Source: Gyromitra esculenta
Taxonomy: Eukaryota > Ascomycota > Pezizomycetes > Pezizales > Discinaceae
Direction of reading: 5' to 3'
Assembly (NCBI GenBank): GCA_038503075.1
Contig: JBCAML010000006.1
Location: forward strand, 806,001-870,000
DNA length: 64,000 bases
Positions 1 through 62,491 of the stretch are shown one piece after another. The position numbers were made by a program, and so were the translations under genes. Below the pieces are notes generated by a model. That model had not been told where the DNA came from. It searched no databases and saw nothing but the letters and a program-made list of their open reading frames with translations. The number at the start of each line of letters is the position of its first letter. Position 1 is the stretch's first letter.

Positions 1-2769
1 AATCCCATGGATTTCAGTTGTACGAATACGTTCGAGCATCGAAATTGCGCTCGACTCCTGGCTATTGCTCGAAAGAACAGACTTGAGTTGAGGCTGAAGT
101 TGTTGAATCGAAATGAGAATCGTGTGAAGTGGGAGATGTGGAAGCCATGTCTCAATCTATTCGACCTTAGCACGGGACGTAGACTTAAATCAAAAAATTA
201 AACTCACCCAAATTGGCGATGGAGTAAACCCAGCACTTGGTGTTCCAGGGCTGGTTGTACCGACGTGGCTGGCCAAGCTAGTTGCACTACCTTGTCGCTG
301 AAACGCCCCTTCTGGGAGCTTCCCTCTCGCCTTTTCAGACATTCCTCGAAGCTGTAATGGGACAGCATCTTCGATTGAGGAAGATACTGAAGAATTCCTA
401 GATAGGGGTACTTGGTGGGAGACGTTTGGTGTGACAGATGACTGACTGCTTGGCTTTACATCTTCGTCCGAATCATCATCGTCTCCAATTTCAAATTGGC
501 TTGGAGAGGTAGGCTTCCCAGTCTCGGCCACTAGCCTACGAGGTTGTGCCCGTAGCTCTTCACTAAAAGTGGGCTTCGCAATACTCTCACTTCCATTTTC
601 GGCCCTATCCTTTCGCACCCTATTCTGGCGATCAATCTCCTCCTGCCCACTCTCCAGAGTGAAGTGGCGAAGAGCCTCAAATCGTTTGTACGAGCGCAGA
701 ACTGCATACACAAAATTTGGATTTTCTGTATACTTTGTCAGAAATACTGTGTGCTCTCACTATTGAGAGCCGTAAACAAACCTAGATATTGGTGTTCAAT
801 AATGGAATTCATTGACTCTAACAGTGAATGTAGCAAGGAGTGATTGGTCTCATTTGCAAGCAAAAATCCAGGAGCGGACATCGAGACGAAAAGCTGCACA
901 AGCTTCGCACTAGCTGCTGATGAAAGGTTTTGGACGTGTGGCGCCACATTCGCCACGATTGCTAGTAATGCTGGATACACCGCCCCAAGCTTGCCTTTAC
1001 TGCCAGTGATTAGGCTGTAAATAGACTATTTAATCATCAGAAATATGTGCTTAGCCATTAATAAATATATAGGAACTAACAGTGATTAAGTAGTCTGCGT
1101 AGGTCCCACTGAAAGATGGTATTCTGACACTTGCTGGCAAAGTATTTTGCCCTTCGAAGCGTTTGTTAAGGCTTTTTCCAAACTTGGGCTCCGTTGATAA
1201 AGTTTGCAAAACAAACACACACATACGTACTACCCCTGATTTTGAAGGATCCAGCCTATGCTCCAATGCGTAATATATAATTAATATAACAAAGTCATGA
1301 ACACGGTTGGTGTCGATTATGAAACTTCGAAATCGCTGTTTGAGCTTTAGCCATCTAGTTTTCACTTACTCGGGATAATATACCTTGTTGCATTGCAGGC
1401 TCTCCCAAAACAGCATAATCATCTCAGGCGCCCACTTGATGGTTTTCTGGCTACCAGGGAGATATGAAGTTGTGGCTTGAATCTATCCGAGAATGATAAT
1501 TATTAGAAAAGGCATGCCCATGTTGGTGCTTGATGTTTACCGGTTGATTCAAAACACGAGTCATTCCGTCAACTAAAAATTGAAAATCTTCAGTCCTGTG
1601 TAGCCGTCCTAAGTAATGCCGATAATTATTCTTCAACTGCACCTCACCCGAGCGACCCTCAGGCACAGGATACAGAAGTAAGGCCAGAAGTAATTGCAGG
1701 CAATACGTTACAAGAACTTGTCGAGGATCCGTGAAAACCACATGGTCATACGGAACCCTCCAGCTTGCAGGGTTATATTTTAGAGTCTAAAGGTTTAGCT
1801 ACCAACCTCTAGAATGTCACTTATAAAACGTGCAACTTCTCACCGTATTTAACAAGGAACACAAGGTAGGAAGCACCACTCTTTTATCGGTGCAAGTGAC
1901 CATGTATGTCAACGCCTTAGTTCCTTTAACGGGTAATATATCTATTTACGTGGTATCAGTGACTTCCCCATACGCTAATTCCGGAAATATGTAGGATGGA
2001 AGACAGACTGGCAGGCATAAACATAGCCTTCGAGGTGATAGCCAACAACAGTCTCAACGTTTCAATCTTGTTCGACTCAAATTCCTTGGTTGTTCCGACT
2101 GGTGTATTGCAACCAACACCACTTTGCCAAATTGCAAATGTAACTTTCGTCTTCGTTGAAAAACTCAGGGGCAAAGAGAACCCCGAATAAAACAATAGAT
2201 CAATCAAAGTATCTACCAGTTCTTCCATCAGCGGAGGAGCTAGCTCAAATCCTGCTTCAACGGTAGGGGATGCTGGAACGGTCTCATCTTTAGCATCTGC
2301 TTCGTCAAACAAAACCTCAGTTCTTCGTCTCCGCCGAGCAGCCCAAAAGAAGTTATTTTGCCATTCCTCGAGTTCATCTTTCTCATATATAAACGGAAGG
2401 ACTCTCGTCAGAACCCGAATACAATTTAAAGCATCCCTCTCTGGAGCTACTTCTGGATCAGGAAACGATACATGGTGCCGTAATATAAATAATCGAGAAG
2501 TTACGGCCAATATCAAGGTTTCGAGGTTCTCAGGATGTGCATCGCGAGTGCGACGGATATCGGCAGCTGAAAAGAGCGTGAAGACGTCCTCGGCAGATTC
2601 CGGGAGCTCCCAGAAGGATAACCAGTACGGATCGTTTGCAGGTATATTCTGGGTTGTATAAGTTTGGGAAAATAAGGACGGGAAAGGTGGCTAACTGGGA
2701 TCTTACGTGTTCTTCTGCGAGGCGAAAAACACCTTTCTTGAAGGACAGCTTGCTGTCTCCAGCACCCAT
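1..2769 (-). CDS. HID1: HID1 family protein (partial, C-terminus beyond window)
   Basis: Homologue of the HID-1/Hid1-Ecm30 family, peripheral membrane proteins of the Golgi/trans-Golgi involved in vesicle sorting (family knowledge). The start codon at 2769 opens with MGAGDSKL, a classic N-myristoylation signal, which supports this start. I read exons 2769-2707, 2648 to about 2000, 1941-1844 and 1786-1541, then further exons down to the window edge. Joined codons give family-like strings such as NIPANDPYW and KYNPASWRVPYDHVVF. The donor after exon 2 looks like an unusual GTCTGT. A disordered Ser/Asp-rich part lies at about 190-710, and after an intron (from about 211 to 150) the helical C-terminal part WLPHLPLHTIL runs off the left edge. 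The fragment covers most of the protein. The short intron-bounded reading frames here are exons, not separate genes. Exact junctions in the 3' half are inferred. Confidence 0.88.
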
Positions 2770-5027: not shown

Positions 5028-8000
5028 ATGCCGGGCGAAGGTCCGCCTTTACCGAACAGGTTCCCCTGCTTGTGTAAGGCAATTTACTCATGGAGCGGAG
5101 AGGTATAATACTGTCGATCTATATCATTACATAGCTCCCGGGACTAATGACGTTTCGTGCTGTTTAGACAAAACGCGATCTCGGTTTCGTCGAGGGCGAT
5201 CTCATCGAATGCCTTAATGCTGGTGATGGGCAATGGTGGATGGGCCGTCTACGGCGCAATAAGCAGGTTGGCCTGTTCCCATCAAACTTTGTGGAGGTTT
5301 TGGATGATCCTATACCACCTTCAAGACCAGTTTCACGAAATGGAGCTCCAAGTCCTATTTTTGGCGCCGGTGGCAACCTCTCCAGAGCAGCCTCTCCAGC
5401 GCCGGCACGCTACTCTAGAGCCTCTTCGCCGCAACCGCCTGCCCACCACTATTTGGATGATCCTCGGTCCCGTTCTCCAATGCCATACCAACAGGGCTAT
5501 CATTCGAGGGCAGCTTCACCAAACCCCTATCTCCGAACTACCTCTCCCAACCAATACACACGAGGCGCTTCGCCAGCTCCTTCTATGTCAAGAAGAGAAT
5601 ATACGCCGAGATCAATTTCCCCAGCGCCCCTGTCGCACTACCACTCCAGAGCTCCCTCGCCTGCTCCATCAATAATGCAATACCATCGTGCCGCTTCCCC
5701 AAATCCATACGGGAATCATAGTGGCCAAGAAGAAAATGCGCCGCCTCCAGCACCACCCCCGCATAGGTATCAGCGTGCTTCCTCTCCATTACCACCTCGA
5801 GAAGGGCGGCGTACACCAGCCCCTTCTGGCGCACATTCTCCCGCTATGCTGGGCAACACCCCAAGCCCTTTACGAAACGCCATGGAAGATGTTATGGAAA
5901 GCCTACAGCACATGACAGCTCGCGACGACAATCGTCCACAAACTCCCGTTGATCCTTGGTCTCCTGAGGCATTTGCGCAACAATATCACCCATCACCATC
6001 AGGTAGAAAAGGCTATACTCGACCCGAAACTTCACTTGGTATAGGTGACCGGGACGACGGGCACCATGACGAGGAAGAGTACGGAATGGCAGTATATCCT
6101 GAAAATCAGCGCCCGCCTAATTTCAATAATTACAGCGAGAGAATGGAAGACCGACTGAACCGATTCCAACTCTCAAACCATCCATCCGGGCGCTATAGAC
6201 CAGACGAAGATGATATTCCCCCTCCACCTCCTCCGAAAAATACAGCATACGATAACATGCGACCCCAGACAGGCGACCCAGTTTTACTGGGGAATCGGAA
6301 ATCGCTGTACGACATAAATGATCGCCGAAGCCCGGGCCCAAATAAGTTGATTCGTCCTAGGCCACTTTCTAGAACAACAACAATCAAATCTAGTGCAACA
6401 TCTAACCAATCTAGTAGTACTAATGCCACCACCTCAACTGCATTGACTAGCGCTAGCATTATGAGTGGGATAAGTGCCGGTGGATTTTCGGCAACCAGTG
6501 CAGGAAGCTTGGCACGCAGAAAAGAAAAGTCAACAAGTGTAATTGGAGTAAGTGGCGTCAGTTTACAAAAGCAAATGTTTGGGGGCCTGGGGAGGTCACA
6601 AACTCCGACCTTTAGTGCTGGAAGTGGTTCGGGGTCGGGGTCGGGAGGAGTAGGCCCAGGCATGTTGAGAAGGGGGCAAACGTGGGGTGCCTCAGAAGTT
6701 ACTTCGGGTACTGGTGCACTGGGCGGGTTGGCAGCACCAAAATCGGGAGCAAAACCAAAAAAAACAGGCTTCCTAAAGAAAATTTTAAACAGTGCGAAAA
6801 CGAGTACTGCTTCTGCGAGAAGCGTAGCAACGGGAATTGGCTCGTCGGCCCCAACCTCGACATCTAGGAACATCCCTGATGGTATTAACGCAATTGCTGG
6901 TGGGTGGGCACCAGTTCAGCAGCAGAGCCAAGATTGGGTCCAAGTTCGAAGGGATGTCAATCGATCAAACACGCTATCAAGGAACGAGCGAATAGAAAGG
7001 CAAGAGAAGCAACAATTGATGGATCAGATTGTTCTTCGGCCAGTCGACGCTTTAGACGATGATGTGGACGGCGACGAGGCCGCAGATGGAGGTGTAGTGG
7101 AGAATCCTGCGGACTTCGATACAGCGAATCTAGCATTAGTTGATAAAGGTGCTAGATTCATTGGTAATTTACCTCCACTTACAACTCCGGAAAGCTTGGC
7201 AGCACATCATGTTTGTCGTCCATATCGGAGCGACTTGCAGCGGTTACGTGCTATATTTACCTGGGTGTCGGAAAAAGTTGCTTGGGAGCATCCAAGTGGG
7301 TCGCTAGGTGGAGAGCCAGGACAAGAAAGCTTGGACCCAAGGATTGTTATCCAGCAAAAAAGAGGAGGTCCAGCGGAGGTAGCTGAAGTAGTTATGGGAA
7401 TGTGCAATGCTGTAGGGATACAATGTGAGATCGTCCGGGGTTATCTGAAAATTCCTGGAGAAGCCTTAGATGTGGAATCTTGTCCGCGGCCAAATCATTG
7501 GTGGAATGCAGTTGCTGTCGATGGAGAATGGAGATTCATGGACTGCTCACTCGCCTCCCCAACAAACCCAAGACGAGTTATGTATTCATCAGCTTCCACT
7601 ACACAAGCAGAATTCTTTTATTTTCTAACCAAGCCCAGCCACCTGTGCTGGACGCATGTGCCAATGATTCTGGAACAGCAGCATATGGTCCCCCCATTAC
7701 CTGCTGCTTTCTTATTAGCACTTCCATGTGCTTGTCCACCATTTTTCAGACACGGCCTACAAATGAACAACTTTGATACCAGTCTAACCAGAATTGAAAA
7801 CCTTGAGGTTGCACAGATTGAATTCACCGTCCCAATCGATGTTGAATGTATTGCGGAAGTGGAGGTACGCGGATTTGCGATCGATCAGGGCGGTGACGTC
7901 TTCGGAAGTGAGGAGGTTGTAAAGAAGAGATCGCTTTGCCAAGTTGTTTGGGAGAATGGAATTAAAACATATCGGGTCAAAGCGGTACTCCCTGGAGACG

Positions 8001-8149
8001 AAGGCCATGGTGTTTTAAAAATTTATGCTGGAAAAAGAGGATTGATCGTGAGCTATATCCCCGCGCAGAGTACGGATTATCAGATCAGCGGCGAACTAAC
8101 TTTAGTCGTCCCCGACAGCACTCAATTCGAGATAACCCACACCCATTAG
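5028..8149 (+). CDS. CYK3: Cytokinesis protein 3 (SH3 + transglutaminase-like), frame broken near the C-terminus
   Basis: Cyk3 acts at the actomyosin ring and promotes septum formation (family knowledge). Exon 1 is 5028-5102 and exon 2 runs from 5168, giving 1018 residues to the stop at 8149. The N-terminal SH3 domain (about residues 12-70) shows AIYSWSGE, QWWMGRL and GLFPSNFVEVL, and needs exon 1 to be complete. Residues ~80-320 are Pro/Ser-rich with SPAP/ASP repeats and PPPPPP tracts; residues ~400-600 are low complexity. The transglutaminase-like domain (about residues 700-830) keeps the His in NHWWNA and the Asp in FMDCS, but the position of the catalytic Cys reads GGPAEVAEV, so it looks enzymatically dead. 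The stop at 8149 cuts the protein before a conserved tail that continues in another frame (next entry). Confidence 0.93.
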
Positions 8150-11124: not shown

Positions 11125-12182
11125 ATGTCTCATTCGCCTCCTGACCTTGACGGCCCTGGCAGCAAACGTCCTCGAGGCAAGTTTAGCTACCTTCTCATTC
11201 ACAAATTTTGCGCACATCCAATATAAGCAGCAGCTACATACTAACATGCAACCCCAGGGATCCTGAAGAACTCAAGCTCCTACCATCGCTCGCCAACCCA
11301 GAAGCCAGTTGCTGTTCTACCCCTCTCGCCTTCCTGTGAAAATATCCCTTCATCCTCTCCTATGGAACACTCGCTATCCGAAAAAGATGTAACTCTCCAA
11401 AATACCCTTCAAAATGCTGGGCGACGCCGTTCATCAGCAGGCCAAACCCCTGTCCGCGTTGGCTCTCGCCGTGAATCCTACGTGAATAGTAAGGACGGAG
11501 AGGTCGAAGATCAGGAACCATCTCCGCGCCTCAAATGGGACGAAGCGAACCTGTACTTAACCGAACAGCAAAAGTCAAGTACCATGAAAATCACTGAGCC
11601 GAAGACGCCGTACGCGAAACGCTATGATCCTCTAGAGGACGAAGTCGAATTCAGAACCCTCGACGCTGAAGACTTAGTCGTAGATGAGTTGGACGCCGTC
11701 GAGGCCAATGCCGGAGAGGGATCAAGTTCTACTGGAAAAAGGGTTAGAAAAGAGTACGCTATGCGGGAGGAGGATATTCCGGGTTTGGAACTTGGAGAAC
11801 CCGAAGAGGCTGTGCCATTAAAGTTGAAGGAGAGCCATTCGCCGAAACAAGTTGTTGTACAAGATGACCACACAAGAGATCACCACGGAGAACCTGGTGA
11901 TGACCCGGAAACGCCGGAGGAGGAGGAAGAGAAACACAGGAAGTTTGCCGAAATGAGAAAAAGGCACTATGAAATGAAAGAGGTGGCCAACCTCTTGGGG
12001 TAGGTCTTGAATCTCTCAATTCAGAGTTGAAAATAAGGCTAACAAGGCGATTTAGACACCCTGAAGAACTTGATGAAGAAGATGACGACGGTGATGTTTT
12101 AGTCGAAGACGCTCAAAACGGCATCCCCGATCTTCCAGGAGCATACCCTGGGCTTGCGAATGGCACTAAATTGTTGGAATAG
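11125..12182 (+). CDS. GLC8: Protein phosphatase 1 inhibitor-2 homologue (Glc8)
   Basis: Modulator of type-1 protein phosphatase (yeast Glc8, animal inhibitor-2). Exons 11125-11176, 11258-11999 and 12056-12182 give 306 residues. The first join rebuilds RPRGILKNS, the [K/R]GILK motif that docks on PP1. [13 protein letters not shown] matches the KWDE region, and [10 protein letters not shown] carries the TP site phosphorylated in the family. The C-terminal [19 protein letters not shown] corresponds to the helix that covers the PP1 active site. The protein is highly charged and probably disordered alone. Intron 1 starts GCAAGT, not GT, and has a perfect CTAAC branch site (11241-11245). No GT donor keeps the GILK frame. 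Confidence 0.9.
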
Positions 12183-24385: not shown

Positions 24386-26040
24386 ATGAGCAATCCCACC
24401 CCCGCCCCTTGGACCTTCCCCACCTTTGAGAATTTCCAAGCCGCCGCTAACGCCGACCTCGCCTCTGCTTATGAGGAAGTTCGTTCCCACTATCAACAGT
24501 GGATTGAAAACCTCACCTATGCTGACCTACAACTCGAAGAGGTCACCCAGGAGAGGAATAACATGACGGGGAGGTTTAACACTTGCCAATCCCAACTGCA
24601 AGCGGCCGAAGCAGAAGTCGTTCGCCTCCGCAACGTTCTCAAGGAGCGGGTTTCTTGTCAAGCTCTCGAGTATCCCTCGAGATGAGCAGTGCTACTTGAG
24701 TAGGAAACCAACAGCGAGAGTGTGTACGGAGATTCTACAGGCTCTACGAGGGGGTCAAGTTATGATGACTTGAGAACGGCGACAGCGGTGGGTTACGAGG
24801 TGTAACCGAGGATTGTATTGTGAAATACACGAGTAAACAATAGAAGACGTTGCTTAAGAAAAGAAGAAGAAAAAGCGCAACAAGAGGGGAATTCCCTTCG
24901 CTTATATATTGCATTCCAACCCTTCCGATGACAAAGCCCTGACTCATGATAACAGAAACCCAAAGAAACGGAAAGAAACATTAGTTTAACGCAACAACTA
25001 TCAACCCTTACACCTAACCGTCCGATAAAACATCCATCCATGAAAAACGTCGCCCCCCCTCCCCCACCACCCGCACCATCTCCACCAGCTCACACTCAAG
25101 AAGGCCACTCAGATAAAATGCCTGACCCAGATAAGTTCAACGGGTCTTGCGACAAACTCCCCGGCTTCGTTCTGCAACTCTGGTCAAAACTCTTGGTTAA
25201 CGCTGACCGCTTCTCCAGCAGCAATAACATGATATTGTATGCTATCAGCCGTCTCGAGGGGGCCGCCCTTGAACAAATCCGCCACTCTGTCCTCCCTGAT
25301 GGGACCACTACCTGGAATGATGCCGCCGAATTAATTGCAGCCTTGGAAACCGCTTTCGGTGACCCTGACCCTCTTGGTACCGCCCGCTGTGAACTACATC
25401 AACTCCGACAAGGAAAGCGAGATTTTTCTGCCTACCTTGCCGACTTCCAATGCATCATGGGGCGCCTGAACTATGACGAGTCTGTAAAAAATGATGCCCT
25501 GGAATACGGCATGTTGGACGAACTAAAGGAAGCAGTGGTAACCGTCGTCAATTTTCCCATCACCTTTACTTCCTTCTGCTCCTTCCTCCTTTGCTTAGAT
25601 AATTGCATTCGAGCAAGAAGAGAGGAAAAGAAAAACGCTGTCCGCAATACTATGGGACAATTTATCGCCCCTGCCGCCGCCCCCACTGCCTTCACCCCCA
25701 CCTCATCCTTTGCCTCCGGAGGGCTCGCCCCCATGGATCTCTCCTTCGGACGTACCTCCACTCCTCGCCCTGTCCTCGAACAACGCTATGTCCAGATAAA
25801 TGGAAGAAGAAAACTTTCCCCAGAGGAAAAAACATGGAGACAGACAAACAACTGCTGTTTGTTTTGCGCTGGGGAAGGACATTTCATCTCCAACTGCCCC
25901 TCCGCCTCTAAACGACTGGCCATGAGAGGAGCTGTTACCAGTGCCACCGCCGCCCCTCCTGCCCCTTCTGTGTTTCCTCCGCCTTTGCCACCACATTTTC
26001 CTGCCTTCGACGCAGCAGACTAAGTTGAGTCTTTAAACTA
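24386..26040 (+). pseudogene. gag of B-outer (interrupted, premature stop)
   Basis: Starts MSNPTPAPWTFPTFENF and is interrupted at 24637 by a solo LTR. Removing it joins RLRN to VAPPPPPP in frame. It contains the retrotransposon gag core (LPGFVLQLWSKLLVN to DELKEAV) and one CCHC zinc knuckle, C-x2-C-x4-H-x4-C, in CLFCAGEGHFISNC. A TAA at about 26021 ends it a few codons before the conserved gag stop TAG at 26039. Confidence 0.88.
24637..25045 (-). mobile_element. Solo LTR, family B, inverted, in gag
   Basis: Plus strand TCTCAAGG...CCATGAAA, flanked by AACGT on both sides. Its U5 hairpin has the variant stem TCTCGAG/CTCGAGA. Confidence 0.9.
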
Positions 26041-26076
26041 GTTCAACCAGAGTCGCCTTGTGACCCTGCTCTGGTT
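26032..26076 (+). promoter_or_regulatory. -1 frameshift signal of B-outer
   Basis: Slippery TTTAAAC (26032-26038), then TAG, a 6-base spacer and the stem AACCAGAG (26045-26052) / CTCTGGTT (26069-26076). The layout is that of A1 with a different but still paired stem. Confidence 0.8.
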
Positions 26077-26686
26077 CATTTTTCTTCTTTGTCTGCGTTT
26101 TCTATCTCTGGGTTTTCAGTGTCTGAAGCGTGTGTGGAGGATAAATTAGATGGGGAACATTTTGTAATTTCATGTAACCTTTCCCATCAAAATAAAAATA
26201 TAAAAACACACGCACTTCTAGACACTTCTCACGGTTGGATCCCTCATTAAGCCCTTCAGTATCCCTGAAGGTGAGCAGTGCTACTTAAACGAGGCATCAA
26301 CACGTTCGAAGAGTACAATGTTTTCTACAAGTTCTACAGTGTAGTCTATCTCAAGGCGAGATAAGTGCAGCAAGGGTTTGGAGGTAGAACCGAGATAGTA
26401 TTGAACGAATGCAGCAGAAGTAAAAAGAAAATGTTGCTTAAGGAGAGAAGAAGAAAACAAAGAACAATTAAAATCCGTCGCTTAAATACCCCGCTTTTCC
26501 ATACCAAGCCTAATACCCAATGACAACTGAAACACAAAGACTTTATCCAACAAACCTGAAATCCGTAACAACCATCTAACCGAACCCTAGCCCTATACCT
26601 AATCTTAATCCGTGAAAACACTGGAGCCTCAGGGTTCGCCTTCATTGATGAAAATTTTTTGTGTCACCATTCTTTGCCACTATTTC
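26060..26686 (+). pseudogene. Start of pol of B-outer (protease region)
   Basis: Continues after the frameshift site with VSEACVEDKLDGEHFVISCN and THALLDT. A solo family A LTR (26227-26617) sits exactly inside the aspartic protease motif; the frame resumes GASGFAFIDENF after it. A1 then interrupts at 26687. Confidence 0.85.
26227..26617 (-). mobile_element. Solo LTR, family A, inverted, in protease motif
   Basis: TCTCACGG...CCGTGAAA on the plus strand, flanked by ACACT. It separates the Asp-Thr codons from the Gly codon of the DTGA active site. Confidence 0.9.
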
Positions 26687-27088
26687 TTTCACGGATTAAG
26701 GATTGGTTATAGGGTTAGAGTTTGAGTATATGGTTGTTGTGTTTTTCGGTTGTAAGACAATGTTATTGTATTTCGGGTGTTATCGGTTATTGGGTTTTGT
26801 TGGGGAAAAGCGGGGTATTTAAGAGAAGGATTTCGCTTGTTTTTCGTGCTTTCTTTCTTCTTACAGCGCGTTCGTTTCACTTCTGCTGTATCTGTTATAA
26901 TTCCACTTCGATTCTATCTTAGAATCCTCGCTGCCGCTGTGAAACATCGCCGATACTTCGCCTTGAAGTATACCTTTCGTAGGACCTGTAGACTATACCG
27001 CACTCCTCGAACGTATTGGTTTCCCGCTTAAGTAGCACTGCTCACCTTCAGGGATACTGAAGGGCTTAACGAGAAGCCAACCGTGAGA
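26687..27088 (+). repeat. 5' LTR of A1
   Basis: Starts TTTCACGG, ends CCGTGAGA. TATTTAAG (26816-26823) is the likely core promoter. At 26861-26874 the sequence reads TTACAGCGCGTTCG where the 3' LTR has the longer block containing AAGCAACGTT, so the self-primer motif is missing in this copy. Confidence 0.93.
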
Positions 27089-27099
27089 TTACGTTGCTT
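27089..27099 (+). promoter_or_regulatory. Primer-binding site of A1
   Basis: TTACGTTGCTT immediately after the LTR. Its last nine bases are the complement of AAGCAACGT at 32323 in the 3' LTR R region. No tRNA-type TGG start. Identical sites flank A2 (41763-41773, minus) and A3 (48596-48606, minus). Confidence 0.75.
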
Positions 27100-27130
27100 G
27101 CTCATCTACACCTCCTACCGCTAACTCCTC

Positions 27131-28462
27131 ATGAGTTCCCCCGTTGACCCCTCCTCCAGCACAGAAGGAGCCGCCGTCGCAGCCTCAGGCTTCCCCACTA
27201 AGGAAGCCTTTGCCAAAGCTTACAGAGATGATCCAGTCGAGCTATACAATCAACTGCGAGAATTAAACCAGAGCCTGGAGGACCAAATAAGCATCCTTCA
27301 AGATAACGAGAAAGACGCTGAAGTAAAACTCAGCACTGCTCAAATTCAAACCGACAATGCCCTCCGACATGCCACACAACAGGATCAAAGGGTTACCGAA
27401 GCAGCCAGCCTTATCGCTAGACTGCGTCAGGAGCGAAACGAAGCCCGCGCAAACCTCTCAGTCCCCCCGGCCCCACCAAACCTCACCGCCACTCCCCCAC
27501 CACCGACATCTTCTATCCATCGCTCCGAACGTATGCCAGATCCAGAGAAATTCGACGGATCTAGAGTTAAACTCCCCGGCTTCATCCTCCAACTTCGTTC
27601 AAAACTCGCTGTTAACAGAGACCGATTCGCGGATGAGAATACCATGATTCTCTACACAATTAACCGCCTGGAAGGAGCGGCCCTAGAACAAGTTCGACAC
27701 ACAGTTCTTCCCTCTGGCCTCACCACCTGGACCAGTGCAGCCGCTCTCATTGCCGCGTTAGAAACTGCCTTTGGAGACCCCGATCCTACCGGTACCGCAC
27801 GAAGGGAACTCCACCAACTCCGTCAAGGAAAACGCGACTTCTCTGCTTACCTGGCTGATTTCCAACGCATCATGGGCCAACTCAACTTCGATGAAAATTC
27901 GAAGATGGACGCCTTGGAGCACGGAATGTCAGAAGAGTTGAAAGAAGCCATGGTATTTGCCACCGCCGTCCCCACTAACCTCGGAGAAATGATCACCACC
28001 CTCACCCGCCTGGACAATCGCATCCGAGCTCGAAAAGCTGAAAAACGAGGCAATACAAGAGACAATATGGGACAATTCAGCTCTCAAGCGATGACCCCCT
28101 TTGTCCCTGCCTCATCATTCGTACCAGGCGGCCTTGCCCCAATGGATCTTTCCTTCGGAAGAACCAGTAACCTGTCTCGCCCCCCGCAGGACCAACGTTA
28201 CACAATGGTAAATGGAAGGAGAAAGCTTTCGGAGGAAGAAAAACAGTGGCGCCGCTCCACTGGGAAGTGTATGTTCTGCGCCGCCCCCGACCACTCTTAC
28301 GCCAGCTGTCCCTCGGCCCCTAAGAAACCCACTATGAGAGGAGCTCTCACTGCACCACCCGCCAATAGAACACCTCCCGCCTCCGCTCTTCCACCACCAC
28401 CTCTCCCCCCCCAATTTTTTGCTTTAGAATCAGCAGACTCATCCAACGAGTCTTTAAACTAG
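27131..28462 (+). CDS. gag: Gag polyprotein of A1
   Basis: 443 residues; forms the virus-like particle and packages element RNA (family knowledge). An N-terminal coiled coil (LNQSLEDQISILQDNEKD and on) leads into a Pro-rich linker. The gag core domain spans about residues 135-290 (LPGFILQLRSKLAVNRDRF to ELKEAMVFA), and one CCHC zinc knuckle lies in CMFCAAPDHSYASC near residue 385. The tail is Pro-rich. The frame ends TCT TTA AAC TAG, which contains the slippery site used to reach pol. It is intact, unlike the gag of A2, A3 and B-outer. Confidence 0.94.
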   Translation: MSSPVDPSSSTEGAAVAASGFPTKEAFAKAYRDDPVELYNQLRELNQSLEDQISILQDNEKDAEVKLSTAQIQTDNALRHATQQDQRVTEAASLIARLRQERNEARANLSVPPAPPNLTATPPPPTSSIHRSERMPDPEKFDGSRVKLPGFILQLRSKLAVNRDRFADENTMILYTINRLEGAALEQVRHTVLPSGLTTWTSAAALIAALETAFGDPDPTGTARRELHQLRQGKRDFSAYLADFQRIMGQLNFDENSKMDALEHGMSEELKEAMVFATAVPTNLGEMITTLTRLDNRIRARKAEKRGNTRDNMGQFSSQAMTPFVPASSFVPGGLAPMDLSFGRTSNLSRPPQDQRYTMVNGRRKLSEEEKQWRRSTGKCMFCAAPDHSYASCPSAPKKPTMRGALTAPPANRTPPASALPPPPLPPQFFALESADSSNESLN

Positions 28463-28497
28463 TCCAACCAAGGCTGATCAGTGACCCTGCCTTGGTT
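28453..28497 (+). promoter_or_regulatory. -1 ribosomal frameshift signal (gag-pol of A1)
   Basis: Slippery heptamer T TTA AAC (28453-28459) lies in the gag frame directly before the TAG stop. After a 6-base spacer there is a 9-bp perfect stem, AACCAAGGC (28466-28474) / GCCTTGGTT (28489-28497), with a 14-base loop. Slipping back one base enters the pol frame, which is open from there on. Heptamer, spacer and pairing are kept in A2, A3 and B-outer with compensating changes. Confidence 0.88.
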
Positions 28498-31400
28498 CCC
28501 ATTTCTTTACCTTTGTCGGCATTTTCTATTTCAGGTTTCTCAGTATCGGATGTGTGCGTGGAAGATCAATTGGACGGGGAACATTTCGTTATAGCTTGTA
28601 ACATTTCCCATAATAATAAAACAATTAAAACTCACGCACTATTGGACACTGGAGCCTCAGGATTTGCCTTCATCGATAAAGACTTTGCGAGTCACCACTC
28701 CCTACCTCTCCTACCTTTAAAAAATCCCAGACAACTTGAAGTGATTGATGGCCGTCCAGTCTCATCGGGAGACATTACCCATATCGCCAACATCAACCTC
28801 TCGATTCAAGAACACCAGGAACAGGCCCCCTGCTTTGTTACTCGGCTGGGACATTACCCTCTCGTTCTTGGAATCCCATGGATGAACTACCACGATGTCC
28901 AACTCCACTTCGCCAAAAAACGCATTGAGTTTAACTCTAAACTCTGCAGAACCCATTGCGCACCACGCTCCCCTCCGGTATCTATCCCAGCCATTTCAAC
29001 ACCTCCTCGACTCAACATGTCTTTCATTGGTGCCGCTAGCTTCAGAACCCTCACCAGGAAACGAACATCACAAGCTTACGCTATGTCCCTTTATGAGATT
29101 AATAAAATCATAGACAAAACGACAACCAAAGAGGAATGGAAGTCTAGAATTCCAGAAGAGTATCACGACTTCCTTGATATGTTTGACAAAAGTAAAGCTC
29201 AAGGACTCCCTCCACGCCGTTCGTATGATCACAAGATACAACTAATAGAGGGAAAGGATGCCCCTTTCGGACCCCTCTACGGAATGTCCCGGGAAGAATT
29301 AATCGTTTTGAAGAAGTATATCGAAGATAACCTCGAAAAGGGATTTATTCGCGCTAGTTCCTCCCCTGCTGGATCCCCTGTCCTTTTCGTCAAGAAAGCT
29401 GATGGGTCCCTACGACTCTGTGTGGATTACCGTGGCCTTAATGCTATTACCGTTAAGGATCGCTATACTTCCCCTCTCATCCGTGAAACCCTAGACCGAC
29501 TTGCGAAGGCGCAATGGTATACTAAACTGGACCTTCGTGATGGATACCACCAAGTGCGCATTGCAGAGGGGGATGAATGGAAGACCGCTTTTCGCACGCG
29601 CTATGGCCTTTACGAGTACCAGGTTATGCCATTCGGCCTAACCAATGCCCCCGGAACTTTCCAACGATTCGTGAACGACTGCCTCACCGAATACCTAGAT
29701 ATTTTCTGTACGGCATACCTAGATGATATTCTCATCTACAGTGATACCTTCTCCGAACACCAAACCCATGTCCGGAAAGTCCTACAAACACTTAAGGACA
29801 ATAGCATCCTTCTAAAACCGGAGAAATGTGAATTCGAGGTACAAACGACCAAATACCTGGGCCTAATACTCACACCTGACGGCATTAAGATGGACGAAGA
29901 GAAACTCAAGGCTGTCAGAGAATGGGGAACACCAAAGAGTGTAAAAGATGTTCAGGCATTCCTAGGCTTCGCCAATTTTTATCGACGGTTCATCTTAGGA
30001 TTCTCCAAACTAGCTGCCCCTCTTACTGCGCTCACCAAGAAAGGCATCCTCTTTGAGTGGTCTGTCGAAGCTGACATAGCTTTCGAAAACCTCAAATACG
30101 CCTTCACCACCGCCCCGATTCTTATCCATTTTGATCCTGATAAGAAGATCATAGTGGAAACTGATGCCTCAGACTTTGTATCCGGAGGAGTACTGTCGCA
30201 GTACGACGATAATGGTGTCTTACACCCAGTGGCTTTCTTCTCAAAAAAACATTCCCCTGCGGAATGCAACTACGAGATCTACGATAAGGAACTGTTAGCC
30301 ATCATCCGCGTTTTCGAAGAATGGCGCCCTGAACTCGAGGGATCAAAGCACCCGATCGATGTAATTAGCGATCACAAAAATCTGGAATACTTCATGAGCA
30401 CGAAGCAACTCAACCGACGCCAAGCTAGATGGGCTGAATACCTATCACGTTTCGACTTTGTGATCACGTATCGACCAGGAAGCCAAGGGGGGAAACCCGA
30501 CGCTCTCACTAGGAGATCAGGAGACCTCCCCAAGGAAGGGGATGAAAGACTGGCACACCAGAGCCAAGTGGTGTTAAAGAAGGAAAATATAGATCCCAAG
30601 CTAAGTTTGTTATCGGCTTCTTTGTCAAATGAAGCCGCTGAACTGGATGCACCCCTAGGAAAACTCTTTCTGGAAGGATATACCGCTGATAAATTTCCCG
30701 AAAAAATACTTCTAGCCCTCAAGAATAAAGAGCAACAATCAAAGGAAATAACCCTTAGTGAGTGTACGGAGGAAAACAATAAACTCTATTACCGAGGAAA
30801 CCTTTATGTGCCGGACTTCGACCCCCTTCGCTTGGAACTTATCAAAAGACATCACGACACCCCCGTGGCGGGGCACCCAGGACGAGATAAAACCTTCGAG
30901 CTTATAAGTAGAAGTTTTTACTGGCCAAAGATGAGAGAGTCGATCGGCCGCTATGTACGCAACTGCCATATCTGTCAAAAGGCTAAGCCGGTTACCCAAC
31001 GTACACAAGGTGTTCTCCGTCCTCTACCCATCCCTAATCGCCCATGGCAGGAAGTTTCTATGGATTTTGTTACAGGCCTCCCAGAATCCGATGGTTATGA
31101 TGCAATCATGGTAGTAGTAGATCGCTTATCAAAAATGCGCCACTTGATACCCTGCAATACTACGGTCAATTCCAGGGAAGTAGCTAATCTATATCTCCAC
31201 CACGTCTGGAAACTCCACGGGTTGCCTACACATGTTACATCGGACCGAGGTACTCAGTTTACCGCCCACTTTTGGAAGGAACTTTGCCAACATTTGGGAA
31301 TTCAATCTCGAATGTCCACTGCGTTTCACCCTGAAACCGATGGACAGACAGAGCGACTTAACGCCGTTATGGAGCAATACCTACGCTCCTATGTGTCCTA

Positions 31401-32154
31401 CCAACAGGAAGACTGGAGCAAGTGGCTACCGATGGCTGAATTCTCTGCTAACAATCAAGAGTCAGCCAGTACTAAAGCCTCCCCTTTCTTTGCAAATTAC
31501 GGCTACCACCCACGTTTCGATACCTCCATGGTTCCTGTGAAAGCTTCTCCCCAGAGCCTCGATGCGGCCTCCTTTGCTCAGACCATGCAAGACTTATATG
31601 ACTACTTAAGAACGCAAATAAGGACGGCACAAGATGTTCAGGAAACTGCTACCAATAAGCATCGTACGCCAGCCCCTTCCTATCAAGTCGATGATCAGGT
31701 CTTTGTTTCAATGAAAAACATTAGGACAATACGCAATGCTCGAAAATTGGACTGGAAGTGGATGGGACCTTATCCCATTAAAAAGATAATATCCCCTTTC
31801 GCCTACGAGATAGATCTTCCCGTTTCAGTTAAATACCATCCCGTCTTTCACGTTTCTTTGTTGAAACCCGCTGCCAACGATCCTCTCCCTGGACAAGTAG
31901 TACCCCCTCCATCACCAGTCGTGGTTAATGAACAGGAGGAATATTTTATCGAAAAAATCCTCGAACAGCGAACATACCGTGGACAACAACAATACCTCGT
32001 CGAATGGACTGGCTATGCACATCCCACCTGGGAACCCGTGGAAGATCTCCTGGAAACGGCTGCCCTCGATGTATTTCTCTCCACGACGATGGCCGATATT
32101 CCTAAAGTTCGCAGGAGCTCACGCTTGAAACGGGGGGCTACTTTCACGGATTAA
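28459..32154 (+). CDS. pol: Pol polyprotein of A1 (protease, RT, RNase H, integrase, chromodomain)
   Basis: About 1230 residues, open from the frameshift site; the frame has no ATG near its start (28492 is TTG), so it is reached by frameshifting. Order: aspartic protease (HALLDTGASG, ~28640), reverse transcriptase with YLDD (~29715), RNase H (ETDASDF ~30165; SDHKNLEYF ~30370), then integrase with an HHCC zinc finger (HH, GH, then NCHICQ; 30850-30980). The DDE core follows: MDFVTG (~31060), TSDRGTQF (~31235) and GQTERLN (~31345). A C-terminal chromodomain (EEYFIEKILEQR to WTGYAHPTWEPVEDL, ~31935-32060) marks it as a chromovirus. The last codons cross the purine tract and end inside the 3' LTR (stop at 32152-32154). 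All catalytic residues are present. Confidence 0.95.
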   Translation, partial: LVQPRLISDPALVPISLPLSAFSISGFSVSDVCVEDQLDGEHFVIACNISHNNKTIKTHALLDTGASGFAFIDKDFASHHSLPLLPLKNPRQLEVIDGRPVSSGDITHIANINLSIQEHQEQAPCFVTRLGHYPLVLGIPWMNYHDVQLHFAKKRIEFNSKLCRTHCAPRSPPVSIPAISTPPRLNMSFIGAASFRTLTRKRTSQAYAMSLYEINKIIDKTTTKEEWKSRIPEEYHDFLDMFDKSKAQGLPPRRSYDHKIQLIEGKDAPFGPLYGMSREELIVLKKYIEDNLEKGFIRASSSPAGSPVLFVKKADGSLRLCVDYRGLNAITVKDRYTSPLIRETLDRLAKAQWYTKLDLRDGYHQVRIAEGDEWKTAFRTRYGLYEYQVMPFGLTNAPGTFQRFVNDCLTEYLDIFCTAYLDDILIYSDTFSEHQTHVRKVLQTLKDNSILLKPEKCEFEVQTTKYLGLILTPDGIKMDEEKLKAVREWGTPKSVKDVQAFLGFANFYRRFILGFSKLAAPLTALTKKGILFEWSVEADIAFENLKYAFTTAPILIHFDPDKKIIVETDASDFVSGGVLSQYDDNGVLHPVAFFSKKHSPAECNYEIYDKELLAIIRVFEEWRPELEGSKHPIDVISDHKNLEYFMSTKQLNRRQARWAEYLSRFDFVITYRPGSQGGKPDALTRRSGDLPKEGDERLAHQSQVVLKKENIDPKLSLLSASLSNEAAELDAPLGKLFLEGYTADKFPEKILLALKNKEQQSKEITLSECTEENNKLYYRGNLYVPDFDPLRLELIKRHHDTPVAGHPGRDKTFELISRSFYWPKMRESIGRYVRNCHICQKAKPVTQRTQGVLRPLPIPNRPWQEVSMDFVTGLPESDGYDAIMVVVDRLSKMRHLIPCNTTVNSREVANLYLHHVWKLHGLPTHVTSDRGTQFTAHFWKELCQHLGIQSRMSTAFHPETDGQTERLNAVMEQYLRSYVSYQQEDWSKWLPMAEFSANNQESASTKASPFFANYGYHPRFDTSMVPVKASPQSLDAASFAQTMQDLYDYLRTQIRTAQDVQETATNKHRTPAPSYQVDDQVFVSMKNIRTIRNARKLDWKWMGPYPIKKIISPFAYEIDLPVSVKYHPVFHVSLLKPAANDPLPGQVVPPPSPVVVNEQEEYFIEKILEQRTYRGQQQYLVEWTGYAHPTWEPVEDLLETAALDVFLSTTMADIPKVRRSSRLKRGATFTD
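32127..32141 (+). promoter_or_regulatory. Polypurine tract of A1
   Basis: GAAACGGGGGG followed by CTAC and then the 3' LTR. It is the expected plus-strand primer and is also read as pol codons. A2 has GAAGGGGGGAG at the same place. Confidence 0.75.
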
Positions 32155-32550
32155 GGATTGGTTATAGGGTTAGAGTTTGAGTATATGGTTGTTGTGTTTT
32201 TCGGTTGTAAGACAATGTTATTGTATTTCGGCTGTTATCGGTTATTGGGTTTTGTTGGGGAAAAGCGGGGTATTTAAGAGAAGGATTTCGCTTGTTTTTC
32301 GTGCTTTCTTTCTTCTTCTTCTAAGCAACGTTCTCGTTTCACTTCTGCTGTATCTGTTATAATTCCACCTCGATTCTATCTCAGAATCCTCGCTGCTGCT
32401 GTGAAACATCGCCGATACTTCGCCCTGAAGTATACCTTTTGTAGGACCTGTAGACTATACCGCACTCTTCGAACGTATTGGTTTCCCGCTTAAGTAGCAC
32501 TGCTCACCTTCAGGGATACTGAAGGGCTTAACGAGAAGCCAACCGTGAGA
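32142..32550 (+). repeat. 3' LTR of A1
   Basis: TTTCACGG...CCGTGAGA. TATTTAAG at 32271-32278 and AAGCAACGTT at 32323-32332, 52 bases further on; the U5 hairpin CCTTCAG-GGATA-CTGAAGG is at 32507-32525. Confidence 0.94.
32507..32525 (+). promoter_or_regulatory. Conserved U5 stem-loop (reference copy)
   Basis: Seven-base-pair stem with an invariant GGATA loop, preceded by AAGTAGCACTGCTCA and followed by GCTTAACGA. Nearly every LTR of both families in the window has the same structure with different but pairing arms. Confidence 0.8.
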
Positions 32551-39700: not shown

Positions 39701-40447
39701 ATCGAACATGTCCAAAAAATCGTGGTACTTAGCGGGGATCCTAGACTTCCATTCTTCTTTCGTGGTTTTATTGTCTATGAGTTTGTTTATCTCATAAAGG
39801 GACATGGCGTACGCTTGGTGGGTGCGTTTTCTAGTGAGGGTCCTAAAGCTGGCCGCGCCAATGAAGGATATATTCATTTTGGAGGGAGTGGGAATCGATG
39901 GGGAGATGACAATGGGGGAGTGAGGGGCACAGTGCGTGGTGCAGAGCTTAGAGTTAAACTCAATGCGTTTGTTAGCGAAATGGAGGTGCACATCGTGGTG
40001 CTTCATCCACGGTATGCCTAGCACTAGGGGGTAGTGGCCCAGTTGGGTCACAAAGCAGGGTGCTTGTTCTCGATGATTTTGGATGGATAGGTTGAGGTTA
40101 GCGATGTGGGTAATGTCTCCGGAGGCGACGGGTCGACCATCGATAACTTCAAGTTGTCGGGGTGTTTTTAAAGGGGTAAGGGGGAGAGAATGGTGACTCG
40201 CGAATTTCTGATCAATAAATGCAAATCCTGAGGCCCGGTGTCCAGTAAAGCGTGTGTGTTTATAATTTTATTGCTATGGGAAATCTTGCATGCTACTACA
40301 AAGTGTTCCCCATCCAATTGATCCTCCACGCTTATACCAGAAACCGAAAACCCCGAAATAGAAAATGCAGACAAAGGTAAGAAATTTGAAACCAAGGTAG
40401 GGTCACTGATCGACCTTGGTTGGACTAGTTTAAAGCCTCGCTTGAGG
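36737..40447 (-). pseudogene. pol of A2 (several frameshifts)
   Basis: Homologous to A1 pol but in pieces. A one-base deletion falls in the protease motif (DTG then frame change, ~40,235) and a two-base deletion in RNase H (HSPA, ~38,625). A one-base deletion follows RNase H (FPER, ~38,180), and two stops come right after the integrase zinc finger (KPVT, ~37,890), where one zinc Cys is also Ser (NSHIC). The integrase core and chromodomain (37831-36737) are intact. The YLDD of RT is intact in the 40,051-38,621 piece. Confidence 0.9.
40390..40434 (-). promoter_or_regulatory. -1 frameshift signal of A2
   Basis: Minus-strand TTTAAAC (40434-40428), TAG, 6-base spacer, stem AACCAAGGT/ACCTTGGTT. 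Compared with A1 the terminal G-C pair has become U-A in both arms. Confidence 0.82.
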
Positions 40448-47202: not shown

Positions 47203-47247
47203 AACCAAGGCAGGGTCACTGGTCAGCCTTGGTTGGACTAGTTTAAA
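47203..47247 (-). promoter_or_regulatory. -1 frameshift signal of A3
   Basis: Minus-strand TTTAAAC (47247-47241), TAG, 6-base spacer, stem AACCAAGGC/GCCTTGGTT as in A1, with loop changes. Confidence 0.82.
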
Positions 47248-48563
47248 GCCTCACTCGAGGCGTTTGCAGACTCTAGGGCAAAAAATTGAGGTGGGAGCAG
47301 TGGCGGTGGTAGGGAGGAGGCAGAAGGCGTTCGGTTAGTAGGTGGTGCGGTGAGGGCTCCCCTCATTGTGGGTTTCTTGGGGGCCGAGGGACAGTTGGCG
47401 TAGGAGTGGTCTGGGGGTGAGCAGAACATACATTTACTAGTAGAGCGGCGCCATTGTTTCTCTTCTTCCGAAAGTTTCCTTCTGCCGTTGACCAGCGTAT
47501 ATCATTGGTCCTAGGGGGGGCAAGTGAGGTTGCTTGTGCGACCGAAGGAGAGATCCATAGGTGCGAGGCCTCCTGGTACGAAAGACGAGGCCGGAACAAA
47601 GGGAGTCATTGCTTGGGAGCTGAATTGTCCCATGGTGCCACGTGTATTTCCCCGTTTCTCTGCTTTGCGAGCTCGGATACGATTATCCATTCGAATGAGT
47701 ACAAGCACCATGTCGTTGAGATTAGTCGGGGTGGCGGCGGCGAAAACCATGGCTTCTTTTAATTCCTCTGACATACCATGTTCAAGGGCATCCATTTTTG
47801 AGTTTTCATCAAAGTTGAGTTGTCCCATGATACGTTGAAAATCGGCTAAGTAAGCGGAAAAGTCTCGTTTGCCTTGACGGAGCTGATGTAGTTCTCGTCG
47901 GGCGGTGTCGGTGGGGTCGGGGTCTCCGAAGGCTGTTTCCAAGGCAGTAATGAGGGCGGCGGCGCTGGTCCAGGTGGTGAGGCCAGAGGGGAGTACAGTG
48001 TGACGAACTTGTTCTAGGGCTGCTCCTTCTAAACAGTTAATGGCGTAAAGGATCATGGTATTTTCGTCGGCGAACCGGTCTCTGTTAACCGCGAGTTTGG
48101 AATGAAGTTGGAGGACGAAACCGGGGAGCTTGGCTCGGGACCCGTCAAACTTCTCCGGGTCAGGCATGCGTTCTGATCGCGAGGTGTGGGCTGGTGGTGG
48201 GGTGGCGGTGAAGTTTGGTGGGGCTGGGGGTGCCTGGTTGGCGGTTCTAGCCTCGTTGCGTTCTCGTCGTAGTTGGGCGATAAGTTCGGCTGCTCCATTG
48301 ACTTGCTCTTCTACTTCTCTGGCGTGTCGGGTGCCATTATCTCCTTGGATTTTCGCACTAGTGAGTTTTATCTCTAATTCCTGTGTACTTTCCTGAAGAA
48401 CGTCAATTTGATCTTCGAGGGCTTGGTTGAGGTCCCAAAGTTGATAGTATAACTCGACGGGATCATCTTTGTAGGCTTGAGCAAATGCTTCCTTTGTAGG
48501 GAAGCGTTGTGCGGCGACAGCAGCTCCTTCAAATGAGGAGGCAGCGGGAGCAGAGGAGCTCAT
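47238..48563 (-). pseudogene. gag of A3
   Basis: Open from 48563 (MSSSAPAASSFEGAAVAAQR) to a stop near 47,511 (after RTSNLTCPP), with the zinc knuckle CMFCSPPDHSYANC in the following piece to 47,238. One stop or frame change separates the two; otherwise it matches A1 gag. Confidence 0.87.
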
Positions 48564-49022
48564 TGTTGCTTCGTTGTAGGAGGTGTCGATTTTGGAAGCA
48601 ACGTAATCTCACGGTTTGATCCCTCGTTAAGCCCTTCAGTATCCCTGAAGGTGAGCAGTGCTACTTAAACGAGAAGTCAAGCGACAAGAGTCACGATGTT
48701 TCTACAGGTCCTACGTGGGTCTAACTCAAGGCGAGTTAAGTGTGGAAATGTTTCAGCGACAGCGACTGCGAGAGTTCTGAGGTAGAACCGAGGTAATATT
48801 AAAACAATACAGTAGAAATAAAGTAAAAACGTTACTTAAGAAAAGAAGAAGAAGAAAACACAAGCGAACAATCTTCATCTCTTAAATACTCCGCTTTACA
48901 ACCATTATGACTCATAACCGATAATAACCAAAACACAAAGACATTATAATCCTAACCGAGATCCTGTTACAACCCATGCAATATCTTTGACCCATTTACT
49001 CCGTCGTATCCGAGAAAGATGC

Positions 49023-56971: not shown

Positions 56972-61308
<4,337 letters not shown>

Positions 61309-62491
61309 TATCCAATGATGAAATAAGTATCAAGAGCTTGTTGGAGTAATCATACCATATCCATAGTGTTTATTTACTTTCGAACTAGGGAAGGGGAAAG
61401 ATGAACCAGATAGTAACCTCCTTCAAGTATAGGAGACAACGGAAGTGGACGGGGAGACGGCTAAGATAGTGGTTTGTATGATTTAGGCTATGGGTTTAAA
61501 TTTCTAATCGAGCTTGAGCGTGAAGAAAGATGATGTATGGATGTACGGATGTTCGTGATATTGGAGGGTGTATCGGTATAGTAGAGAACGGTGATCACGG
61601 CGGGGTGAGGACTTGGGAGAGGTGACAAGTTACAACAAACAACCTGGTGTAGGAGGGGCAACAGACAAAGAAGCTACTACTAGGTACCGAGAACGAGTCG
61701 AAGCCTTCTCTATACTAGCTGAAGATGAGCCTGAGGCGGAGGGGGTGGTGGTGGCGGTTGTGGTGGTGGCGGGGGGCGGGTACGAGGAAGGAGTAGAGGA
61801 GGCAGGTCGGGGGTCAAGAAGCGTTGGAAAAGCAAGCTAAGAAGTGGAAAGTGTAGCAGAGTGGCTATGGCTTGCGAATGTATGGTGAGGAGTTGAGGTA
61901 GGTTGAGCCGCTGCTGACTATTATTTTATTTCGTGATGAGGAAGGGGGGTGATGGCAGCTTGTCGCAGAGCGGATGCGTTCTCTCACAGGATGCGCTTGA
62001 TACATCTGTGCACAGTGCAGTGCTCTACGTAGTTGCTTCACGGGCGAGGGCAAGGTGTGGCTTAATGCGGGGCTCTTGTGTGTGTGCACCGCCACCGCTT
62101 GGGCCAAGCACATCCTTTCAGGTATTCGCCCATACCTGAAGCAGTACACACACTACTGTACCTCGCAACGGTGGCTGTGGCAGAGAATAAAAGTACGCGC
62201 ACATGTACGTACTTGATATGTGTATTTGGGCCAACTTCCTCGGTGGTTTTCTCTAGTTGTATTGTTGCTTGTGCCTGTCGCCATCTCATGCTTGTGCGGG
62301 GAACACCGTGAGACCCGCCTTTTGTGACTCGGTCCCGCATTCGACATCGTGCTGGATTGACTCAACCTCACTCCGTTCCCGCATCTCTCCCTCCCCCTTC
62401 CTCTACCCTCTACATAGGGCTTCCTGGCTATCTTATAGCACCATACCCACTCCCACTTTCCTTCCATTCAATCAATGGCATTCCCACCGCC
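61309..62491. promoter_or_regulatory. Divergent promoter region (UBP15 / mitochondrial kinase)
   Basis: Nearly 1.2 kb non-coding. It contains a strongly G-rich stretch on the plus strand (about 61,735-61,805, runs of GG/GGG/GGGGGG separated by T or C) and CT-rich sequence at 62,385-62,470 before the kinase start. Short open frames over the G-rich stretch are compositional artefacts. Confidence 0.5.

Follow-up and report, generated by a model that had tools for sequence, protein, structure and literature searches.

The window, by which we mean the whole stretch of 64,000 nucleotides analysed here, contains a cluster of LTR retrotransposons flanked by host genes (Table 1). Matches to the Cyk3-like host protein (5168-8146) reach 89% identity (83% where 97% of the query is covered), and the best named ones among the 120 listed come from Choiromyces (70%), Rhizina (62%), and Geopyxis and Pyronema (56%), all of which belong to the Pezizales. 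The elements belong to the Ty3/gypsy chromoviruses, and the fungus that carries them is Pezizales-like. Element A1 is nested within another, B-outer, and its pol open reading frame (28369-32154; 1261 aa) presents the domain order protease, reverse transcriptase, RNase H, integrase and chromodomain, as in Tf1/sushi chromoviruses, the protease match being weak (E 3e-4). The zinc knuckle CX2CX4HX4C of Gag, a Tf1/sushi trait, is found in A1 and in six of nine gag-frame translations examined. Judged by sequence, on domain order and Gag knuckle, the elements appear Tf1/sushi-like, and the group is active-looking. A search against viral contigs yielded one 27% match over a short stretch, which was not used.

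The two LTRs of A1 are 95.9% identical over 410 aligned columns. They run from TTTCACGG to CCGTGAGA, not from TG to CA, with ATTTC on both flanks. An inverted LTR copy at about 26226-26617 has ends like those of the A1 LTRs. B-outer is broken twice (26226-26686), by this inverted copy inside its protease codons and by A1 about 70 bases beyond. A crude test for self-priming on one copy, comparing 27071-27140 with the LTR, gave no perfect match of 8-14 nt. Among the four copies in the window (A1, A2, A3 and B-outer), both frames are open in A1 only. The gag frame of B-outer closes at a TAA (26021-26023) ahead of the heptamer, its heptamer and stem being intact; the gag frame of A3 (47511-48608) stops short of its heptamer, and the pol frames of A2 and A3 are fragmented.

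Table 1. Features of the window; host genes, retrotransposon frames and elements of the gag-pol junction
Feature	Position	Strand	Remark
Hid1-like host gene	1956-2690		flanks element cluster
Cyk3-like host gene (SH3 + transglutaminase)	5168-8149		flanks element cluster
IPP-2 host gene	11245-12003		flanks element cluster
B-outer heptamer, stop, stem AACCAGAGT/GCTCTGGTT	26032..26076	+	8 Watson-Crick pairs and U.G
B-outer candidate S2 strand GGGTT	26110-26114	+
A1 5' LTR	26687..27088	+	ends from repeat and flanking ATTTC
A1 gag ORF, stop to stop	27125..28462	+	Retrotrans_gag, DUF4939, CX2CX4HX4C knuckle
A1 slippery heptamer T_TTA_AAC, gag frame	28453..28459	+	X_XXY_YYZ in zero frame
A1 pol, -1 frame	28453..32154	+	protease, RT, RNase H, integrase, SH3_Tf2-1, chromodomain
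A1 gag stop TAG	28460..28462	+	directly 3' of heptamer
A1 stem S1, 5' arm AACCAAGGC	28466..28474	+	6-nt spacer after heptamer
A1 loop string GTGACCC	28481..28487	+	identical in 126/132 copies
A1 stem S1, 3' arm GCCTTGGTT	28489..28497	+
A1 candidate S2, 3' strand GGTT	28534..28537	+	would pair with GACC 28483-28486; inferred
A1 GTCAC (pol +238)	28691..28695	+	complementary to loop GTGAC; possible long-range partner
A1 3' LTR	32142..32550	+	ends from repeat and flanking ATTTC
A2 heptamer, stop, stem AACCAAGGT/ACCTTGGTT	40390..40434	-
A3 heptamer, stop, stem AACCAAGGC/GCCTTGGTT	47203..47247	-
USP7-like host gene	57346-58269		flanks element cluster
Mitochondrial branched-chain dehydrogenase kinase host gene	62312-63956		flanks element cluster

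The original prediction held that gag of A1 ends T TTA AAC TAG, that pol lies exactly in the -1 frame with no ATG near its start, and that a 9-bp stem follows six bases after the heptamer. The two reading frames and the arms of the stem agree with this description, and no conserved start codon occurs at the beginning of pol across copies; the arms given for A2, A3 and B-outer were likewise found as described. All four window sites combine T_TTA_AAC_TAG with a 6-nt spacer and a 9-position stem (S1), the spacer falling within the approximately 5-9 nt expected of a canonical -1 programmed ribosomal frameshift signal. The string TTTAAACTAG occurs in the window at 26032 and 28453 on the forward strand and at 40434-40425 and 47247-47238 on the reverse strand, and none of 100 shuffled windows held four or more matches to it. 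A covariance model was built from the four window copies together with one other (L001), so that those four match by construction (E <1e-17); its scan of the window found no fifth site, the next match having E 0.33. The Rfam gathering scan of the window gave no match. For A1 and B-outer the energy z of the 38-nt hairpin is -2.97 and -2.51, respectively, and in 88-nt windows all four sites lie near 0 (-0.20 to 0.60). Fold stability alone is thus unremarkable; the argument is carried by covariation and by the constraint on synonymous sites.

Copies were collected from the genome (47.1 Mb in 23 contigs), in which 588 instances of TTTAAACTAG were counted and 169 of the reversed control, and which harbours hundreds of copies of the element group. 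A pol-start query returned 702 candidates; the 150 that were scored and listed included 44 whose frame is open for 1200 aa or more. Eighty of the 150 were drawn, 43 of them having a pol of 1200 aa or longer and 37 being taken at random, and 60 of these were fetched, a sample enriched for long pol frames. A second batch comprised 60 of the 72 heptamer places (from 100 listed) that lay near no listed pol match; a third, of 20 short pieces, took 6 of the other 12 heptamer places, 8 loci from a gag search with L075 and 6 from the pol list. Two of the 140 loci fetched had no exact TTTAAAC and were left out, namely L023, whose junction is lost, and L123, which reads TTTAAAT with the stem present. 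The other 138 and the four window copies gave 142 junctions, and removal of 10 background heptamers, recognized by pol similarity outside the stem, left 132 copies, 128 of them elsewhere in the genome. The heptamer is kept in 59 of the 60 copies chosen by pol similarity alone and, in the copies holding it, is followed by TAG (130/132) or TAA (2/132).

The stem exists in several recurrent forms: AACCAAGGC/GCCTTGGTT in 49 copies, AACCAGAGT/GCTCTGGTT in 26, AACCAAGGT/ACCTTGGTT in 18, CACCGAAGT/GCTTCGGTT in 17, CACCGAAGT/ACTCCGGTT in 3, and AACTGAAGT/GCTTCAGTT and AACCTGAGT/GCTCAGGTT in 2 each. A further 15 types are represented by single copies, 8 of which have a broken core pair, three of those by indels. 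The earlier statement that the stem changes only in pairs therefore holds for the four window copies but is too strict for all 132, among which wobble pairs occur, one subfamily has C.U at the outermost pair (the spacer then being 7 nt), and one or more core pairs are broken in 11 copies. For a phylogenetic test, a FastTree tree was calculated from pol +50 to +490, outside the signal, for 110 of the 113 long copies (L022, L095 and L107 were dropped because of stem indels), and in 1000 null runs the changes of each column were put on random branches. Sixteen double paired changes were counted, against a null mean of 1.66 and a maximum of 7; the covariation score was 3.18, against 0.92 +/- 0.36, and was reached in none of the 1000 null sets, and a paired fraction as high as the observed 0.968 arose in 20 of the 1000 simulated sets. 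The covariation test proposed in the original prediction was thus passed on the collected copies, with a null of our own in place of R-scape.

Because recombining copies would move the stem as a block and inflate the number of events, each recurrent type was also counted once. In the seven types, that is, only those seen twice or more, 55 of 56 core cells are paired, against a shuffled mean of 48.3 and with none of 100000 shufflings as high, so that the paired changes do speak for a selected RNA structure, as had been argued. In a count on seven rows 96.8% of positions pair, as opposed to 20.6-50.8% after a shift of the partner by 1-3 columns. The distinct pair types imply at least about five double changes. 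Two of the five measures in this seven-row count were not above shuffling (both-side changes, 144/500; further pair types, 443/500). RNAalifold recovers S1 and, beyond it, no strong further fold. Since its paired changes covary, S1 is shown to be kept by selection on RNA pairing.

Copies combining unpaired arms with intact gag and pol were sought among the 27 whose pol frame spans 1200 aa or more and whose gag is open over 380 codons or more. All eight core pairs are retained in 26 of them, GTGACCC in 27, and the stop is TAG in 26 and TAA in one. The sole exception, L010, has one A.C mismatch; in L005, with the same stem and loop, the predicted hairpin gains two pairs on its inner side (-9.1 kcal/mol). 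In the subfamily of L010, L005 and L030 (CACCGAAGT/ACTCCGGTT), with its internal A.C, these two extra inner pairs would use part of the loop string. Pairing is as frequent in copies with open gag and pol start (53/57) as in the others (51/56; p 0.74); decay consequently gives no extra support either way.

Synonymous variation was compared along the first 160 codons of pol. With L022, L095, L107, L067 and L092 excluded, five copies with stops in the first 60 pol codons were dropped from the remaining 108, and the other 103 were thinned to 80 representatives below 97% identity. The lowest value of all 142 eleven-codon windows (0.11) belongs to the one that starts at the heptamer, against a mean of 0.42 downstream. 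Codons 1-3 of pol overlap gag; the overlap-free window of codons 5-15 is still the third lowest (0.17). Residues vary there, with R/K/E at codon 7, S/L/P at codon 8 and L/S (Q in L075) at codon 14, and the loop codon GAC is present in 80/80 representatives and never as GAT. Coding constraint does not explain the conserved stem. In addition, L013 and L018, which have open gag and pol frames of 1234 and 1233 aa, carry a pol-frame TGA separated from the heptamer by one codon, so the change of frame must fall between this TGA and the gag TAG, which places it at the heptamer.

We consider it very probable that the junction is a programmed -1 ribosomal frameshift signal which makes Gag-Pol in this chromovirus group, with a selected S1 and a probable second stem (S2). 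The majority of ribosomes would read TTA AAC TAG and release Gag. A minority would be paused by the RNA fold 6 nt past the heptamer, whereupon both tRNAs would slip back by one base, from UUA to UUU and from AAC to AAA, and pol would be translated; the slippage itself and its rate are deduced here from the frames and the sequence. S1 is maintained through selection on pairing, and the loop GACC(C) would form an H-type pseudoknot with GG(G)UU.

This second pairing, with a partner about 47 nt on, is new here, the account of the earlier reader having comprised only the one stem, and it probably forms, with a confidence that we put at a little better than even. S2 is proposed because of codon choice and G/T swaps, not covariation, and no compensatory change was found at S2 among the copies compared. 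The complement of the loop, GG(G)TT, sits at +80 to +85 in a Gly-Phe codon pair, and where codon 28 encodes glycine it reads GGG or GGT in 75/79 cases; from codon 36 on, these two make up 33% of the glycine codons. Of 11 third-base changes inferred on the tree for this site, 7 are G/T transversions, and the corresponding figure for 39 other fourfold columns is 20 of 286 (Fisher p 6e-6, with the events treated as independent). GGTT is present in 27/27 copies with open gag and long pol. The predicted pseudoknot would consist of an S1 of 9 positions, a first loop of 8 nt, an S2 of 4-5 bp and a third loop of about 32-36 nt.

The strongest competing explanation, to which we assign somewhat less than an even chance, is a simple hairpin stimulator with no pseudoknot, the loop and the glycine codons being conserved through codon context, protein binding or packaging. 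Hairpin-only frameshift stimulators exist, and S1 alone covaries. Furthermore, the S2 complement is missing in 5 of the 80 representatives, including L075 and L078, in which gag is open for 439 and 448 aa, and glycine column 42 is GGG/GGT in 99% with no S2 role, so that site-specific codon bias of another cause does exist. A hairpin of this kind would nevertheless leave the GGG/GGT preference and the G/T excess to fall exactly at the complementary site, while six other glycine columns have a GGG/GGT share of just 7-37% and the loop GAC is invariant.

Selection of the stem for packaging, dimerisation or reverse transcription, with incidental proximity to the heptamer, is improbable. More stretches at the start of pol are conserved at the RNA level, namely GGGGAACA (+123) and GTCACCA (+238), as such a role might suggest, but it would not account for the 6-nt spacing (7 nt with the outermost C.U), the canonical heptamer and the exact change of frame, which recur in 7/7 recurrent types. 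The loop of A1 contains a palindrome, CTGATCAG, that was considered as a dimerisation site and rejected, being retained in only some of the copies. The first of the conserved stretches, 28574-28611 (pol +121 to +158), holds GGGGAACA and TCCCA, both with conserved synonymous sites, and might fold into an 8-bp hairpin, AUGGGGAA/UUUCCCAU, of which RNAalifold gives a 3-bp core only. In the second, GTCACCA is held at the RNA level while the codon switches between AGT (Ser) and CGT (Arg), and GTCAC is kept in 75/80 representatives. The chance of the loop finding such a partner among conserved runs is about 0.03, and that of any two runs matching about 0.24; long-range pairing is therefore a lead only, and no covariation was found for GTGAC/GTCAC. 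It is conceivable, if unlikely, that GUGACC(C) pairs with either of two downstream strands but never with both at once, one being GG(G)UU at about 47 nt and the other GUCAC at about 205 nt, and that such a switching pseudoknot sets the Gag:Gag-Pol ratio.

It is very improbable that pol has its own start, by reinitiation or internal entry. The first pol-frame methionine is at codon 34 in 41/132 copies, but among the 80 representatives this codon is Met in only 32 (Ile in 20, Val in 16), and the synonymous constraint is centred on the heptamer and stem; an internal start was rejected, as there is no conserved start codon near the beginning of pol. That the arms match through a conserved peptide and not through RNA is less probable still: the pol reading shows fair conservation of Q-P and D-P-A-x-V, yet paired changes swap residues (in the 3' arm, Leu becomes Ser or Gln) with pairing retained, and synonymous codons are avoided, so protein-only constraint was discarded. 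Stop-codon readthrough can be set aside as next to impossible, since, for all that the stop lies directly 3' of the heptamer and the gag frame stays open over the 50 codons examined past it in 25/132 copies, pol is in a different frame that readthrough would not reach, and the next gag-frame stop comes within 5 residues in 55/132 and within 42 residues in 107/132.

With its hundreds of copies and several compensated stem types, the element group amounts to a rich collection of natural mutants of a fungal -1 frameshift signal, and allows S1, the loop and the candidate S2 to be tested directly in yeast. Annotation could also benefit from a covariance model of the junction, as gene prediction can render such a junction as a false intron, of which Tcn1 is an example (PMC10085805).

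Synthesis of Gag-Pol by -1 frameshifting is already known for this class of elements. Tf1/sushi elements outside fission yeasts are described as using predominantly programmed -1 frameshifting (PMC10085805), Verticillium is reported to contain Gypsy elements whose pol lies in the -1 frame (PMC3441728), and a 2003 survey (Gao et al.), as reviewed, found both -1 and +1 arrangements among fungal elements (PMC5009743). The present structure was not found among the listed matches of a search of the literature on fungal, truffle, Pezizales and chromovirus frameshift signals, whose scope was mostly papers outside subscription. Among 120 listed of 7878 homologous proteins, the pol N-termini showed no slippery-site motif except, speculatively, GKPKG in two (P0002, P0046), which could reflect a G_GGA_AAC heptamer in relatives. 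With the Tf1/sushi elements MAGGY, skippy, grasshopper, Tcn1, marY1 and sushi-ichi, those described here share the -1 Gag/Pol frames, chromodomain, SH3_Tf2-1 and CCHC Gag. Structural covariation or a pseudoknot was not found described for that group in the accessible parts of two accounts (PMC10085805; PMC3441728). The present elements differ in their LTR ends, TTTCACGG...CCGTGAGA, and in giving no self-primer match in the crude test.

Sireviruses are Ty1/copia elements. At the gag-pol junction of a plant sirevirus, a stem with covariant nucleotides is likewise reported, of 11 bp and with a 4-nt loop (PMC5009743). In contrast to the present elements, pol is in the +1 frame there. The signal of the coronavirus IBV has a 6-nt spacer, a long S1, a short S2 and a long loop. 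Its heptamer, U_UUA_AAC, is the one found here and is listed among the most shift-prone on mammalian ribosomes (PMC5009743); IBV is, however, an unrelated element, and here S1 has 9 positions and the candidate S2 4-5 bp. The Ty3/gypsy-derived genes PEG10 and Ma3 (PNMA) share a gag-frame heptamer with a downstream stimulator, described as a pseudoknot in PEG10 and as an H-type pseudoknot after a classical heptamer in Ma3 (PMC5009743). Whereas these are domesticated mammalian genes, the signal described here belongs to active-looking elements and joins a 9-position S1 to a third loop of about 32-36 nt and a candidate S2.
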